This document shows, piece after piece, positions 6,849 to 49,833 of a stretch of 49,833 nt of DNA. The number at the start of each line of letters is the position of its first letter. Positions within the stretch are counted from its first letter, which is position 1. Source of the DNA: Verrucomicrobiota bacterium (lineage in GTDB: Bacteria; Verrucomicrobiota; Verrucomicrobiia; Limisphaerales; SIBE01); the NCBI GenBank assembly GCA_016871535.1, contig VHCZ01000013.1, positions 1-49,833 on the forward strand, written 5' to 3'. Below the pieces are notes generated by a model. It was not told the DNA's origin. It saw only the letters and a list, made by a program, of their open reading frames with translations, and ran no database searches. The translations under genes were made by a program, and so were the position numbers.

Positions 6849-7120
6849 TTACTGATCAGACCGTGGGATAGGATACACTTTGCCAGGAGGGATTTTGGCC
6901 AGCCGCGAGGAGCGCGCGAGGCGGTGGATCCTTGCGATCCACAACGAGCGAGCGACGAAGCGGCGGGCCAAAAGACCCCCGGCCCTGCGGGTTGCGCCGC
7001 ATTTGGGATCTGGCTTTGTTGCGCCTCAGTCGAAGATCCACCAGGGATATTCTCCTTCGTCGCGCCTGAGCCCAAATGCGACGCAACAAAGTGTATTCTA
7101 TCCCACGGTCTGATCAGTAA
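6849..7120 (+). mobile_element. Three-stem palindromic element, copy 1 (non-coding, MITE-like)
   Basis: 272 bp. The outer arms 6849-6882 and 7087-7120 (34 nt each) are inverted repeats with one mismatch. Inside lie two more inverted repeats. Stem P2 pairs GGGATTTTGGCC (6889-6900) with GGCCAAAAGACCC around 6966-6978 and itself encloses GTGGATC/GATCCAC. Stem P3 pairs TTGCGCCGCATTTGGG around 6992 with CCCAAATGCGACGCAA at 7071-7086. The whole could fold as a three-way junction. The core is shared with copies at 41307 and 49709. No transposase or credible ORF is present. Termini TTACTG...CAGTAA fit insertion at a TA dinucleotide. It occupies most of the 400-nt mutY-rnhC gap; the flanks 6788-6848 and 7121-7187 show nothing else. 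Confidence 0.8.
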
Positions 7121-39868: not shown

Positions 39869-39940
39869 GGCGCGTCTTGGGGCGGCGGCGTTCCGGCTTG
39901 CAGGGACGGCATTAGTGCGTGGGGTGCCAAATGACGCGCC
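39869..39940. repeat. Spaced inverted repeat downstream of rplQ
   Basis: GGCGCGTC (39869-39876) and GACGCGCC (39933-39940) are exact complements 56 nt apart, with partly complementary flanks (TTGG, CCAA). It lies in the 162-nt gap between rplQ and the PQQ-type gene. It could be a degenerate interspersed palindrome. No T-run accompanies it. Confidence 0.35.
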
Positions 39941-39981
39941 AAGGATTGATATCTCTTGGGTTCCGCGATAGGAAGCTTCTC

Positions 39982-41310
39982 ATGAAAATACTTCTTCCGT
40001 TCCTGCTCTTGGCCTCGGTCACGGCGGGCGAAGCGCGCTGGCCGCAGTTTCGCGGTCCTGGAGCAATGGGCGTCGCCGAAGGGAAAAACCTTCCCGAGAC
40101 ATGGAGCAAGGATCAGAACGTGGCGTGGAAAACCGAAATTCCGGGCTATGGGTGGTCCTCACCCATCGTCTGGAACGACCGGATCTTTCTGACCTCGGTG
40201 ATCAAGGATGGCGAAGTCGAAACACCCAAGAAAGGACTCTATTTCGGCGGGGAACGGCCCACCCCCTCGAAGGATCTTCATCATTGGATGGTGTATTGTG
40301 TGGACAGCCGCACGGGCAAGATACTTTGGGAAAAGCAGGTTCATGAAAGCGCGCCGCCCAGTTCTATTCACGTCAAGAACACCTACGCGTCGGAAACGCC
40401 GGTCACGGACGGCGAGCGCGTGTATGCCTGCTTCGGCAATGTCGGCGTCTTCTGTCTGGACTACGCCGGGAACGAACTGTGGTCGCACAAGCTCCCGGCC
40501 CGCAAAGTCCGCAATGGCTGGGGGACGGCCGCGTCGCCGGTGTTGCACGGCGACAGGCTCTACCTCGTGAACGACAACGAAGAGCAATCGTTCCTGCTCG
40601 CGCTGGACAAGCGGACCGGAAAGGAAGTCTGGCGCGTCCCTCGCGACGAGAAGAGCAACTGGGCGACTCCTTATATCTGGGAGAACGAGAAACGAACCGA
40701 GATCGTCACGCCGGGACGCACCCGGGTTCGGTCCTATGATTTGGAGGGACAACTCCTGTGGGAGTTGGGCGGCATGTCCTCCATCGTGATTCCAACGCCG
40801 TTTTCTAAGTTCGGGCTCCTCTACGTCTGCTCCGGCTACGTGGGGGACAAGACGCGGCCTGTGTTCGCTATTCGGCCCGGCGCTTCCGGAGATATCTCTC
40901 TCAAACCGGGAGAGACCAGCAACGAGTTCATCGCCTGGTTCCAGCCCGTGGCGGCGCCGTATAATCCATCACCACTCCTTTACAACGATTATTTCTACGT
41001 GCTGTTCGATTTCGGTTTCCTCGCCTGCCACGACGCACGGACGGGCCGGGAGTTGTTCGGCAAACAGCGCATCAACACCACAGGAACCTCCGGCTTCACC
41101 GCCTCGCCTTGGGCCTACAATGGCCGCATCTTTTGCCTGAGCGAAGACGGTGACGCGTTCGTTTTCCAGGCAGGGCCAGACTACAAACTGCTCCGAAAAA
41201 ACAGCCTCGATGAAATGTGCATGGCCACACCGGCTATCGCCGCCGACAGCCTCATCATTCGGACGGCCCGACACCTTTACTGCATTCGCGATGCGGCGGC
41301 GGTTCGCTAG
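39982..41310 (+). CDS. Exported PQQ-like beta-propeller protein
   Basis: 442 residues from ATG 39982, which gives a good signal peptide (MKILLPFLLLASVTAGEA) and has GGAAG 7 nt upstream; an in-frame ATG at 39919 only adds unrelated residues. The mature protein starts RWPQFRGPGAMGVAEG, the usual opening of PVC PQQ-like propellers, followed by repeated blades such as VYCVDSRTGKILWEK, LLALDKRTGKEVW and FCLSEDGDAFVFQ. Such proteins are periplasmic or envelope-associated; binding of PQQ is not certain, as many lack the cofactor. The TAG stop (41308-41310) is contributed by the first bases of the palindromic element copy 2. Confidence 0.9.
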   Translation: MKILLPFLLLASVTAGEARWPQFRGPGAMGVAEGKNLPETWSKDQNVAWKTEIPGYGWSSPIVWNDRIFLTSVIKDGEVETPKKGLYFGGERPTPSKDLHHWMVYCVDSRTGKILWEKQVHESAPPSSIHVKNTYASETPVTDGERVYACFGNVGVFCLDYAGNELWSHKLPARKVRNGWGTAASPVLHGDRLYLVNDNEEQSFLLALDKRTGKEVWRVPRDEKSNWATPYIWENEKRTEIVTPGRTRVRSYDLEGQLLWELGGMSSIVIPTPFSKFGLLYVCSGYVGDKTRPVFAIRPGASGDISLKPGETSNEFIAWFQPVAAPYNPSPLLYNDYFYVLFDFGFLACHDARTGRELFGKQRINTTGTSGFTASPWAYNGRIFCLSEDGDAFVFQAGPDYKLLRKNSLDEMCMATPAIAADSLIIRTARHLYCIRDAAAVR

Positions 41311-41582
41311 TGATGTGTCTCACAAATGGCTGGAGTTATGCCGCAAGGGATTTTGGCCTCCCGCGAGGCGCGAGCGACGCGCATACCTCTCGTGGGTCTG
41401 TAAGGCGTGAGCAACGAAGCAGGAGGCCAAAAGACCTGTGGCCCGAAGGGTTGCGCCGAGAACGGTCTGGGGCTGCGTGCTCCTGGGTCGCAGAGCACTG
41501 GGGCTATGCTCCCTCGTCGCGCCTTGCCCCAGGCCGTTTTGGGCGCAACATAACTCCAGCCATTTGTGAGACACATCACTAG
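41307..41582 (+). mobile_element. Three-stem palindromic element, copy 2 (non-coding, MITE-like)
   Basis: 276 bp. The arms 41307-41340 and 41549-41582 are perfect 34-nt inverted repeats beginning CTAGTGATG and ending CATCACTAG. Inside, AGGGATTTTGGCC (from 41346) pairs with GGCCAAAAGACC (stem P2), and TTGCGCCGAGAACGG...CTGGGGC pairs with GCCCCAGGCC...GGGCGCAA (stem P3). GGGATTTTGGCC, GGCCAAAAGACC, GGGTTGCGCCG and CTCGTCGCGCC occur here and, in nearly the same form, in copy 1. No transposase ORF is present. The left end supplies the stop codon of the upstream gene and the right arm overlaps the open frame of the downstream gene. Confidence 0.85.
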
Positions 41583-41595
41583 TGCTGATCTCCTC

Positions 41596-43728
41596 ATGCG
41601 CAGTTCGACGGTAGAGAAAGTCGGATTAGCCGGTCCGGTGCGCCGGAGCCGCCTAAAGGCGGGATTACAAACCGGCGCACATTCATGGGAAGTTTCCACG
41701 GTTTCCGAACCGGTAGGGCGAGTCCGTCCCGGCGAGCCGCTCCACGTGCTCGGAACACGTCCGAATCGGCTCGCCCTACCCGAAGGTCCATGGAGGGTTG
41801 ACCGGGATTCCTGGCCGCAAGCCGCGATTGAAGCGACCCGGAAACTGGCCACGAGACTCGTATTAGTGCTTGCGCTGGCCGTGCCGATTTCCTCCTACGC
41901 GCAGCAACCCCCAGACGATTCCACAGCCAAGAAACCGTTTTATCTCCCGAAGAACCCGGTCGCCGCCGCTTACGTCCTCGGTCGCCTGTCGAACCAGGAC
42001 TTGATCGAAGCGCCCCGCAGTGAGTTCGTCTATGTCGCGCTGCTGCAACGCAAAAACCTGGACAGGAAGTACCGGTTGGAAGCCTTGGATGGACTGGCCA
42101 AAGCGCGAAACACAGACACCGTGACCGAGTTGATCTCGGCGTTGGGCGAACTGGACAAGAAGGGCGAAGAGTCCGAACCGGTCCTGCGGGAATTATCCGT
42201 TTTGTTGCTGTCTCGATCGCCCGAGGAGATCTCTTCCAAGCGGTCGGCCCTGGAAAACCTCTCAACTCAAGCGCAGGGCGCGCCAACGCGGCAGATCGCG
42301 TTCGCCGGAGTCATCACGGGCGACAAATCCTTGGAGCCTCTCTGGAAAAGCGCGGAGGCCGGCAGAGCGAAACTGACGGATGTTGTCCAGGCTGCCGCGC
42401 TGGTCCGCGACGCGGCGCTTCGCGCTCAGGCCGGCCCGAAGATCACGCCGCTCTTGGATACGACTGATCAACCTGAACTGCGTCGCGCCGCCATCGCGGC
42501 GGTGGCTGCGATTCCGGGACGTGAAGCGGAGATCTTCAAGAGACTCGCCGCGATGATCCAAGCCGGAGTCGAAGTGAAAGCCGCGCTGGCCAGCCTTCCG
42601 CGCATTCCCAAGAAGCTTTGGCCCGCGGACACAGTCCCGGCGCTCGCCGAAAGAGTGCTCCAGCACCTGGGAAACGTGCCGCCCCCGGAACGGACTCAGC
42701 CGGAGTTCATCAACGCCGTGCAGTTCGCGACGGATCTCGCGTCGCTGCTTCCGGCAGAGCAGGGGAAGGCCATGAACAAGGTGCTGCGCAGCCTCGGCGT
42801 GCGAGTGATCGTCATTCGCACGCTCCACGAACAGATGCTTTACGATAAGCAGTTGATCGTGGTCGAAGCGGGCAAGCCAGTGGAAATCCTGTTTGAGAAT
42901 GACGACACGATGCCCCACAACCTGGTAGTCGTCCTGCCTGGCGCCGTCGAGGAAATCGGCCTCGCCAGCGAAACGATGCCGCCGCTGCCAGACGCGCAAG
43001 GGCGGCTCTACCTCCCTGCGTCGTCCAAGGTTCTGCACGCCACGCGCCTCTTGCTGACAGGCGAAAAGGAAAAGCTCAGTTTCACTGCGCCGCAGCAACC
43101 CGCTGACTACTCCTACGTTTGCACGTTTCCAGGCCACTGGCGGCGCATGGTCGGCATCCTGAAAGTCGTGAAAGACCTGGAGGAATACCTGGCCACTCAC
43201 ACCGAACCGGTCGCGCCGCAAACGACGGAATGGAAAGTCAGCGACCTGGCGCCCGACCTCGAGAAACCGCGATCCGGACGAAATCTGGCGCAAGGAAAGC
43301 AATTGTTCACCGCGCTGGCCTGCGCTCAGTGCCACAAGCTTGGAACCCACGGATACGCATTCGGACCGGATTTGACCGAGGTGTTTCAACGCTGGAAAGG
43401 CGACCGCGCTGGCGTGCTGGGCGAACTGATCGAGCCTTCCAAAGTCATCAACGACCGCTATCGCAATTTCGAGTTCGAATTGAAAAACGGCGACAGCGTG
43501 ATCGGCCTGATCGTGAAGGAAGACACGGCCAGTGTGACGGTTCAAACCGGAGCGTCCGATGCTTTGATCCAGACTTTGCGCAAGGCGGACATCAAAGAGC
43601 GAAAACCCCAGGCATCGTCCCTGATGCCGATGGGCCTGCTCAACCAGAGTTCAAAAGATCAGATCCTCGATCTCCTGGCGTTTCTGGAATCCGGCGGCAA
43701 GACGGAATCATCCGAACACCGGCATTGA
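41596..43728 (+). CDS. Exported cupredoxin plus cytochrome c protein (PVC heme-binding type)
   Basis: Open frame from GTG 41566, inside the repeat element, through ATG 41596, to 43728. The true start is uncertain: residues 80-110 of the frame (ATRKLATRLVLVLALAVPISSYA) look like a signal peptide, and everything before it is repeat DNA. Counting from 41566, a helical HEAT-like region (about 125-400) is followed by a type 1 copper domain with ligands H451, C519, H524 and M528 (spacing C-x4-H-x3-M), then a heme site CAQCH at 586-590 with FGPDLTEVFQRWKGD after it. Copper and heme centres in one periplasmic protein suggest electron transfer. It resembles the Pirellula/Verrucomicrobium heme-binding family. 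Confidence 0.85.
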   Translation: MRSSTVEKVGLAGPVRRSRLKAGLQTGAHSWEVSTVSEPVGRVRPGEPLHVLGTRPNRLALPEGPWRVDRDSWPQAAIEATRKLATRLVLVLALAVPISSYAQQPPDDSTAKKPFYLPKNPVAAAYVLGRLSNQDLIEAPRSEFVYVALLQRKNLDRKYRLEALDGLAKARNTDTVTELISALGELDKKGEESEPVLRELSVLLLSRSPEEISSKRSALENLSTQAQGAPTRQIAFAGVITGDKSLEPLWKSAEAGRAKLTDVVQAAALVRDAALRAQAGPKITPLLDTTDQPELRRAAIAAVAAIPGREAEIFKRLAAMIQAGVEVKAALASLPRIPKKLWPADTVPALAERVLQHLGNVPPPERTQPEFINAVQFATDLASLLPAEQGKAMNKVLRSLGVRVIVIRTLHEQMLYDKQLIVVEAGKPVEILFENDDTMPHNLVVVLPGAVEEIGLASETMPPLPDAQGRLYLPASSKVLHATRLLLTGEKEKLSFTAPQQPADYSYVCTFPGHWRRMVGILKVVKDLEEYLATHTEPVAPQTTEWKVSDLAPDLEKPRSGRNLAQGKQLFTALACAQCHKLGTHGYAFGPDLTEVFQRWKGDRAGVLGELIEPSKVINDRYRNFEFELKNGDSVIGLIVKEDTASVTVQTGASDALIQTLRKADIKERKPQASSLMPMGLLNQSSKDQILDLLAFLESGGKTESSEHRH
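41712..41780. repeat. REP-like palindrome
   Basis: GGTAGGGCGAG (41712-41722) and CTCGCCCTACC (41770-41780) are exact inverted repeats, with an inner ACGTG/CACGT stem and GGCGAGCCG/CGGCTCG partial symmetry. A related half-site lies near 49663. It sits between the palindromic element and the signal peptide region of the cytochrome gene, in the open frame. Confidence 0.6.
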
Positions 43729-49708: not shown

Positions 49709-49833
49709 TTAGTGGTCCGTTTCGTAAATACGCTCACGTTCGTTGCGCCCAATTTGGCCTGGGGCAAGGCGCGACGAGCGAGCATCCCCCGCCAGTGGGG
49801 CTGTGACCGAGGAGCAACGCAGCCCCAGGCAAA
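49709..49833 (-). mobile_element. Three-stem palindromic element, copy 3 (cut by window edge, inverted orientation)
   Basis: The first 34 nt (49709-49742, starting TTAGTGGTCC) align as an outer arm. They lead into GTTGCGCCCAATTTGGCC, GGGGCAAGGCGCGACGAGCGAG, which on the minus strand reads CTCGTCGCGCCTTGCCCC and GGGCGCAAC, the P3 half of copy 2. The copy therefore runs on the minus strand. It continues past 49833, so its second arm and the P2 stem cannot be seen. Confidence 0.75.

Follow-up and report, generated by a model that had tools for sequence, protein, structure and literature searches.

Introduction

To our knowledge, known bacterial MITEs are each tied to one type of insertion sequence (IS), and MITEs are usually viewed as dead-end offshoots of that IS. 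The IS5- and IS630-derived MITEs (Correia/NEMIS, RUP and Nezha) are small and gene-less, carry IS-matching terminal repeats, are flanked by a short target duplication, reach high copy number and fold strongly. The elements described here are alike in all of these respects and differ in that one core serves many terminal-repeat types, belonging to two or more transposase families, and turns up in several phyla. A likeness of another kind is found in attC and REP hairpins, which fold in a strand-specific manner and conserve structure while their sequence changes. As in integron attC sites, the present elements seem to feature a folded single strand in which unpaired features are conserved over sequence; they differ in that no R'/R'' boxes (RYYYAAC/GTTRRRY) are found by eye, no integrase lies nearby, and terminal repeats and target duplications are present. 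Modular or mosaic non-autonomous organisation is familiar from BOX and SPRITE, and the same likeness extends to TIMEs. REPINs and REP sequences, mobilised by RAYT, share with our elements the arrangement of two inverted imperfect hairpins and a strand-specific structure, but are defined by a GTAG or CGTC tag, a RAYT partner and the lack of terminal inverted repeats, whereas the present elements have terminal repeats, DDE-type duplications, no recurrent adjoining gene and tandem GA loops in hairpins of ~75-105 nt, relative to the 20-40 nt of the GTAG/CGTC-tagged REP palindromes in a listing of bacterial MITEs (PMC3733652). In TIMEs, the Tn3-derived miniature elements (PMC4133298), the Tn3-type ends are constant and the cargo varies, whereas here it is the core that is constant and the ends that vary. 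Sequence comparison shows family-specific duplications on transposition, a common core, exchanged ends and strand-specific folding of that core, and we regard it as quite probable that these elements form a modular MITE superfamily with selection on the folded strand.

Copies in the window and in the genome

The window analysed here, the whole of contig C13 (49,833 bases), belongs to a genome of 6.67 Mb in 460 contigs. It holds two complete copies of the element (6849-7120 and 41307-41582); the contig end truncates a third, which begins at 49709 and has the opposite orientation. Exactly five hairpins are found in the window by the covariance model R1, all within these three copies (E 6e-9 to 1e-20). 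No gene lies inside the elements, which thus combine terminal inverted repeats (33-34/34 paired arm positions) with the lack of coding capacity typical of MITEs.

In copy 1 the left arm (P1, type F1; 6849..6882, +; TTACTGATCAGACCGTGGGATAGGATACACTTTG) pairs at 33/34 positions with the right arm (P1', 7087..7120, +), and TA is duplicated at 6850-6851 (+) and 7118-7119. Enclosed between the arms are hairpin P2 (6896..6970, with + as its GA strand; R1 40.1 bits, E 6e-9), a small hairpin CCCTGCGGG (6983..6991, +), and hairpin P3 (7005..7080), the GA strand of which is the - strand (R1 58.6 bits, E 4e-14). The same succession is seen in copy 2, where arms of type F2 (41307..41340 and 41549..41582, both +) pair at 34/34 positions and include the duplicated CTAG at 41307-41310 and 41579-41582, with P2 at 41354..41429 (+, R1 66.2 bits), the small hairpin CCCGAAGGG at 41442..41450 (+) and P3 at 41463..41536 (-, R1 78.9 bits); the small hairpin folds in nearly all representatives. 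The truncated copy 3 (type F3, TTA target) spans 49709..49833 (-), and its hairpin at 49755-49832 is assigned to the + strand in the R1 listing.

An earlier note on this DNA had reported copies at 6849, 41307 and 49709 with self-complementary 34-nt arms, and both claims hold, the first two copies being complete. Its three-stem plan gives way to a four-way layout, in which P1, P2 and P3 are accompanied by the small UUCG/GNA-type hairpin, and its single end signature flanked by TA stands for copy 1 as regards the TA but not for copy 2, where CTAG is found and the signature differs. The note knew of no named family with such a plan, and the searches agree: neither the window elements nor six other loci match Rfam 15 at the gathering score, which discards a known RNA family, and nothing equivalent was found in the papers searched. 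In the empty-site comparison that it suggested, the 41307 copy is missing at the orthologous locus of two genomes of the same genus (G309 and G310), the flanks of which are too diverged for a base-exact junction to be read.

The ORF upstream of copy 2 (39919-41310) ends in a TAG stop codon that lies within the duplicated CTAG and was brought by the 41307 insertion; its ortholog in G309 runs to a different end. A separate dispersed repeat (GGTAGGGCGAGTCCGTCCCGGCGAGCCG...) occupies positions 41712-41775 of the window; further matches to it, at 87-100%, are present in the rest of the genome as well as in genomes of the same genus and family.

By BLAST, 76 genomic matches are retrieved with the 6849 copy as query and 65 with the 41307 copy, and the motif GACYGAGGAGCAACGMAGCC occurs at 300 sites relative to none for its reversed control; these copy numbers rest on searches of the genome and show that the repetition of the element is not due to chance. 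Inverted-repeat analysis separates the arms into no fewer than nine types (F1-F9), all built to one plan in which P1 surrounds P2, a small CCC-UUCG/GNA-GGG hairpin and P3, in that order. As P2 is homologous to the reverse complement of P3, the element is an inverted dimer. Many contigs of the genome terminate in these elements.

A hairpin core with conserved tandem GA mismatches

The core comprises a pair of imperfect hairpins in inverted orientation, both with tandem GA/GA mismatches, together with the small hairpin. An initial alignment of 10 hairpin sequences (A1) has 90% of its cells paired, relative to 71% upon shuffling, and double changes in 14/22 pairs, with covariation confined to the segments between the GA/GA loops. 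In the cross-genome alignment (R1; 104 hairpins, 87 loci) 92.9% of cells are paired (68.5% shuffled) and covariation reaches 0.562, relative to 0.171 shuffled and at most 0.102 in slid controls, values that are to be read in light of the first 10 sequences having shaped R1 and of relatives not being independent, although most loci were supplied by a pattern scan that left the stems unconstrained. The hairpin features three consecutive GA/GA tandem mismatches, retained in 83-91 of the 104 sequences (about 80-88%). The lone base pair between two of these tandem mismatches is GC in 44 cases, CG in 35, AU in 11 and UG in 3, and the adjoining wobble is GU in 66 and GC in 27, the G-U form thus being kept in about two thirds of copies. 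Throughout the stems G-U outnumbers A-C by 170 to 24, which identifies the GA strand as the folded one. Over the full element, 21 copies from four genomes of the order have 97% of cells paired and double changes in 60/91 pairs (29/30 in P1). Within these dimers it is the GA-strand form that folds better, with P2 on one strand in 20/21 and P3 on the other in 17/21, an asymmetry in energy that is partly built into the energy model through its GA-pair bonus.

Clustering of the ORFs around 148 loci yields no recurrent neighbour gene, and orientations relative to the adjoining genes (23/19/16/15) are without clear bias, which sets aside both a gene-linked element and a cis-regulatory RNA of the adjoining genes. 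The medium in which the GA strand would be read is RNA or single-stranded DNA; the conserved G-U wobble and the purine-flanked GA loops lean to RNA, and an inverted pair of sites fits either. The core could be a structured RNA that the element gives rise to and that acts on mRNA or on the transposase, with the MITE as its vehicle, a reading that is compatible with a modular MITE superfamily and that we place just short of an even chance. It would account for the large excess of G-U over A-C on the GA strand and for the retained wobble, it suits tandem GA mismatches flanked by purines, which are less suited to DNA, and it agrees with a pattern for which the flanking genes do not account; it sits less well with the lack of an Rfam family and of orientation bias, and with the hairpins of the inverted dimer favouring opposite strands, which is awkward for a single transcript.

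A further reading compatible with a modular superfamily, and in our judgement possible if somewhat doubtful, is that a recombinase or replication factor recognises the hairpin as single-stranded DNA on one of the strands, much as attC or REP sites are read. Strand-specific folding and a structure that stays constant while the sequence changes are as expected from attC and REP hairpins, and the inverted pair provides each strand with one site, as in REPINs. However, the short family-specific target duplications indicate DDE transposition of double-stranded DNA, no recombinase gene recurs beside the elements, and terminal repeats are present wherever the ends can be read.

Indications of end exchange on a kept core

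Comparison between elements within the order shows that the outer ~17-20 bp have been replaced in both arms and that the inner stem and core have been retained. The elements G318_L329 and G313_L333 are 0.83 identical in the core and 0.86 in the inner arm but 0.40 in the outer 20 bp (TAAGGGTCCGTCAAGA vs CTAGTGTAGTGTCTCAC), and F3 and G313_L331 combine a core identity of 0.87 with 0.55 in the outer arm. The reverse combination is seen between F2 and G313_L331, where the outer arm is 0.90 identical, the core 0.76 and the inner arm 0.43; sphingomonad elements have cores that are 0.70-0.82 identical, with unlike ends. We conclude from these identities that the outer ~17-20 bp, on the one hand, and the inner stem with the core, on the other, behave as separable modules, so that a single core can apparently pass from one mobilising enzyme to another. 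Both arms would change together, either because the fold-back stem templates the second arm or through capture of the core between new IS ends.

The earlier note had remarked that the arms differ while their pairing is kept, and this is upheld across 21 elements from four genomes, with 386/420 cells paired in the outer 20 bp (shuffled mean 226) and 274/294 in the inner 14 bp (shuffled 149). The choice it left between structural constraint and arms homogenised within each copy is answered differently for the two parts: the outer ~20 bp are best read as exchangeable transposase ends, and structural constraint stands for the inner stem and hairpins, which we take to be a selected structure because the GA mismatches in them have been kept instead of being mended. 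A G-U excess in P1 (56 vs 30 across phyla) is reversed in the order-level set and is given no weight for that reason.

Target duplications are short and of fixed length within each family, as in MITEs, and differ between families. They measure 2 bp in F1 (TA, 9/9 copies), 4 bp in F2 (CTAG in 7/8 and CCAG in 1/8, a reading that rests on the C preceding and the G following in 8/8), and 3 bp in F3 (TWA, 12/12) and F4/F5 (TNA, 13/15). The TA expected of an IS630/Tc1-derived MITE is found in F1 only, while F2, F3 and F4/F5 depart from it, and a single IS630/Tc1 origin is ruled out by this dependence on family. Both features of IS5-type MITEs, identity of the terminal repeat and a 3-4 bp TNA/YTAR duplication, are found in F4/F5, the former with the IS L062 over the outer 20 bp, and F2 shares the duplication only.

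Transposase matches in the genome amount to four DDE_Tnp_1 and one DDE_3. L062 (C148:6321-9779) is an IS5-family element (NF033580, 227 bits) with an end matching F4 at 24/33 positions (shuffled maximum 21), and L065 (C148:2015-5410), ~4 kb away on the same contig, belongs to the IS630 family but is decayed (87 bits, where the cutoff is 100), and has an end matching F3 at 25/34 (shuffled maximum 21), both matches being strong only across the outer ~20 bp. The element is a MITE by definition but not one of a single parent IS, with IS5 ends resembling F4/F5 and IS630-like ends resembling F3. The TA-type target proposed in the earlier note is supported, as is a MITE nature, and the lack of an IS630/Tc1-like enzyme in the window is confirmed, all of the genome's matches lying on other contigs; the note's fit to one such transposase finds no support in view of three duplication lengths and of IS5 and IS630 ISs matching different arm types. 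No resident IS with ends matching F1 or F2 was found, the hairpin is absent from L062 and L065 under R1 and has one match among 30 transposase loci, an autonomous partner for most arm types was not found even in a finished genome with four paired copies, and DDE_Tnp_1 IS partners in other genomes gave no terminal-repeat match above background.

It is very unlikely, given these data, that we are dealing with ordinary MITEs of a single transposase lineage, in which the arms drift with the transposase and a functionless core is shared by descent. Such MITEs would display the observed MITE features and target duplications, and the gradual differences within the arm pairs F3/F7, F4/F5 and F8/F9 are what drift would produce, but they would not combine core identities of 0.83-0.87 with outer-arm identities of 0.40-0.55, as well as the reverse, nor three target-duplication lengths, and across phyla a neutral core would lose both its GA/GA mismatches and its compensated single pairs. 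Template-switch repair of palindromes (quasi-palindrome correction) acting without selection would explain the like arms within a copy, as in the matching arm variants per copy in G078, and the lack of G-U excess in dimer P1 arms (~7 G-U vs 13 A-C outside the duplication), and may explain the outer arms, but as a general account of the pairing it is highly improbable and is refuted for the hairpins, where correction would erase mismatches and yet the GA/GA loops persist and only the segments between them covary.

In Sphingomonas sp. CFBP 13720 (G289; L312 and L315), a multi-copy contig-end sequence with the end CTAGAGCGGTTTTCGATCAGTCTG shares ~18 bp with a MITE end, and it is likely the partner insertion sequence of the hairpin MITEs of that strain.

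Proposed mode of mobilisation

Under the modular superfamily that we favour, a first module consists of the outermost ~17-20 bp in both arms, which act as a terminal repeat that can be exchanged, fits an IS5-type or IS630-type transposase and sets the length of the target duplication, and a second of the inner ~14-17 bp stem with one hairpin, or two inverted ones, carrying the tandem GA/GA mismatches. Transposases encoded elsewhere would act on the element in trans, by cut and paste. The core would be retained because its GA strand folds in a single-stranded state, either RNA or ssDNA, in which a widespread factor, of the host or of transposition, would bind it and raise the success of the copy; in the dimer, one GA-form hairpin per strand would allow either strand to supply the GA form. 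Upon gaining new terminal repeats, the same core would switch transposase. That a factor reads the core and acts on mobilisation is put forward tentatively, at somewhat less than even confidence, and its identity is a guess.

Distribution across bacteria

The hairpin is found by R1 in 18/289 genomes of the phylum, including that of the window. Among the matches listed in a pattern scan of named genomes are Acidobacteria, Bryobacterales, Vicinamibacterales, Verrucomicrobia, Sphingomonas, Novosphingobium, Porphyrobacter, Myxococcales, Elusimicrobia, Gemmatimonadetes and Aminicenantes. The GA hairpin thus recurs in Acidobacteriota, sphingomonads, Myxococcota, Elusimicrobiota and other Verrucomicrobiota, within elements of many different ends; part of the matches in other phyla are MAG contigs that are possibly misbinned, and those from Sphingomonas, Novosphingobium, Porphyrobacter and Aureimonas are from isolate genomes. 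When 20 elements of other genomes were folded, the arms formed P1 and a GA hairpin was present in most of them, frequently accompanied by the small hairpin and P3. Acidobacterial elements are ~165-175 bp long with one hairpin, and sphingomonad ones mostly ~270 bp. Enclosing repeats, tested on generic flanks, were found at 38/87 loci and 30/257 controls, a weak test, and terminal repeats are claimed only for individually inspected elements. The hairpin pattern is absent from 2.9 million viral contigs, which discounts viral spread, and among plasmids the Novosphingobium element found no match.

A bolder extension, which we consider improbable as a whole, is that the folded single-strand module, probably RNA, serves as a domain-wide 'lure' that would recruit a conserved factor and exploit unrelated transposases, by analogy to Alu with LINE, swapping its ends upon the arrival of new insertion sequences.

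A core that outlasts changes of its ends across phyla would constitute a long-lived parasite lineage, and how MITEs outlive their parent transposons becomes a testable question in cultivable sphingomonads. The conserved tandem-GA hairpin is itself an unlisted nucleic-acid motif, the binding partner of which can be fished for directly.

The record RPSH01, 'Bacillus sp. 2B10' (L217, L228 and L234), contains elements of the sphingomonad type with the same ends, and is probably a mislabelled or contaminated assembly. Finally, related short elements of ~130-150 bp with an arm type of their own (CATTGGAATG / TTCAAGATGAG... side) are found in G327 (L343-L345), where they apparently enclose a single P2-like hairpin.
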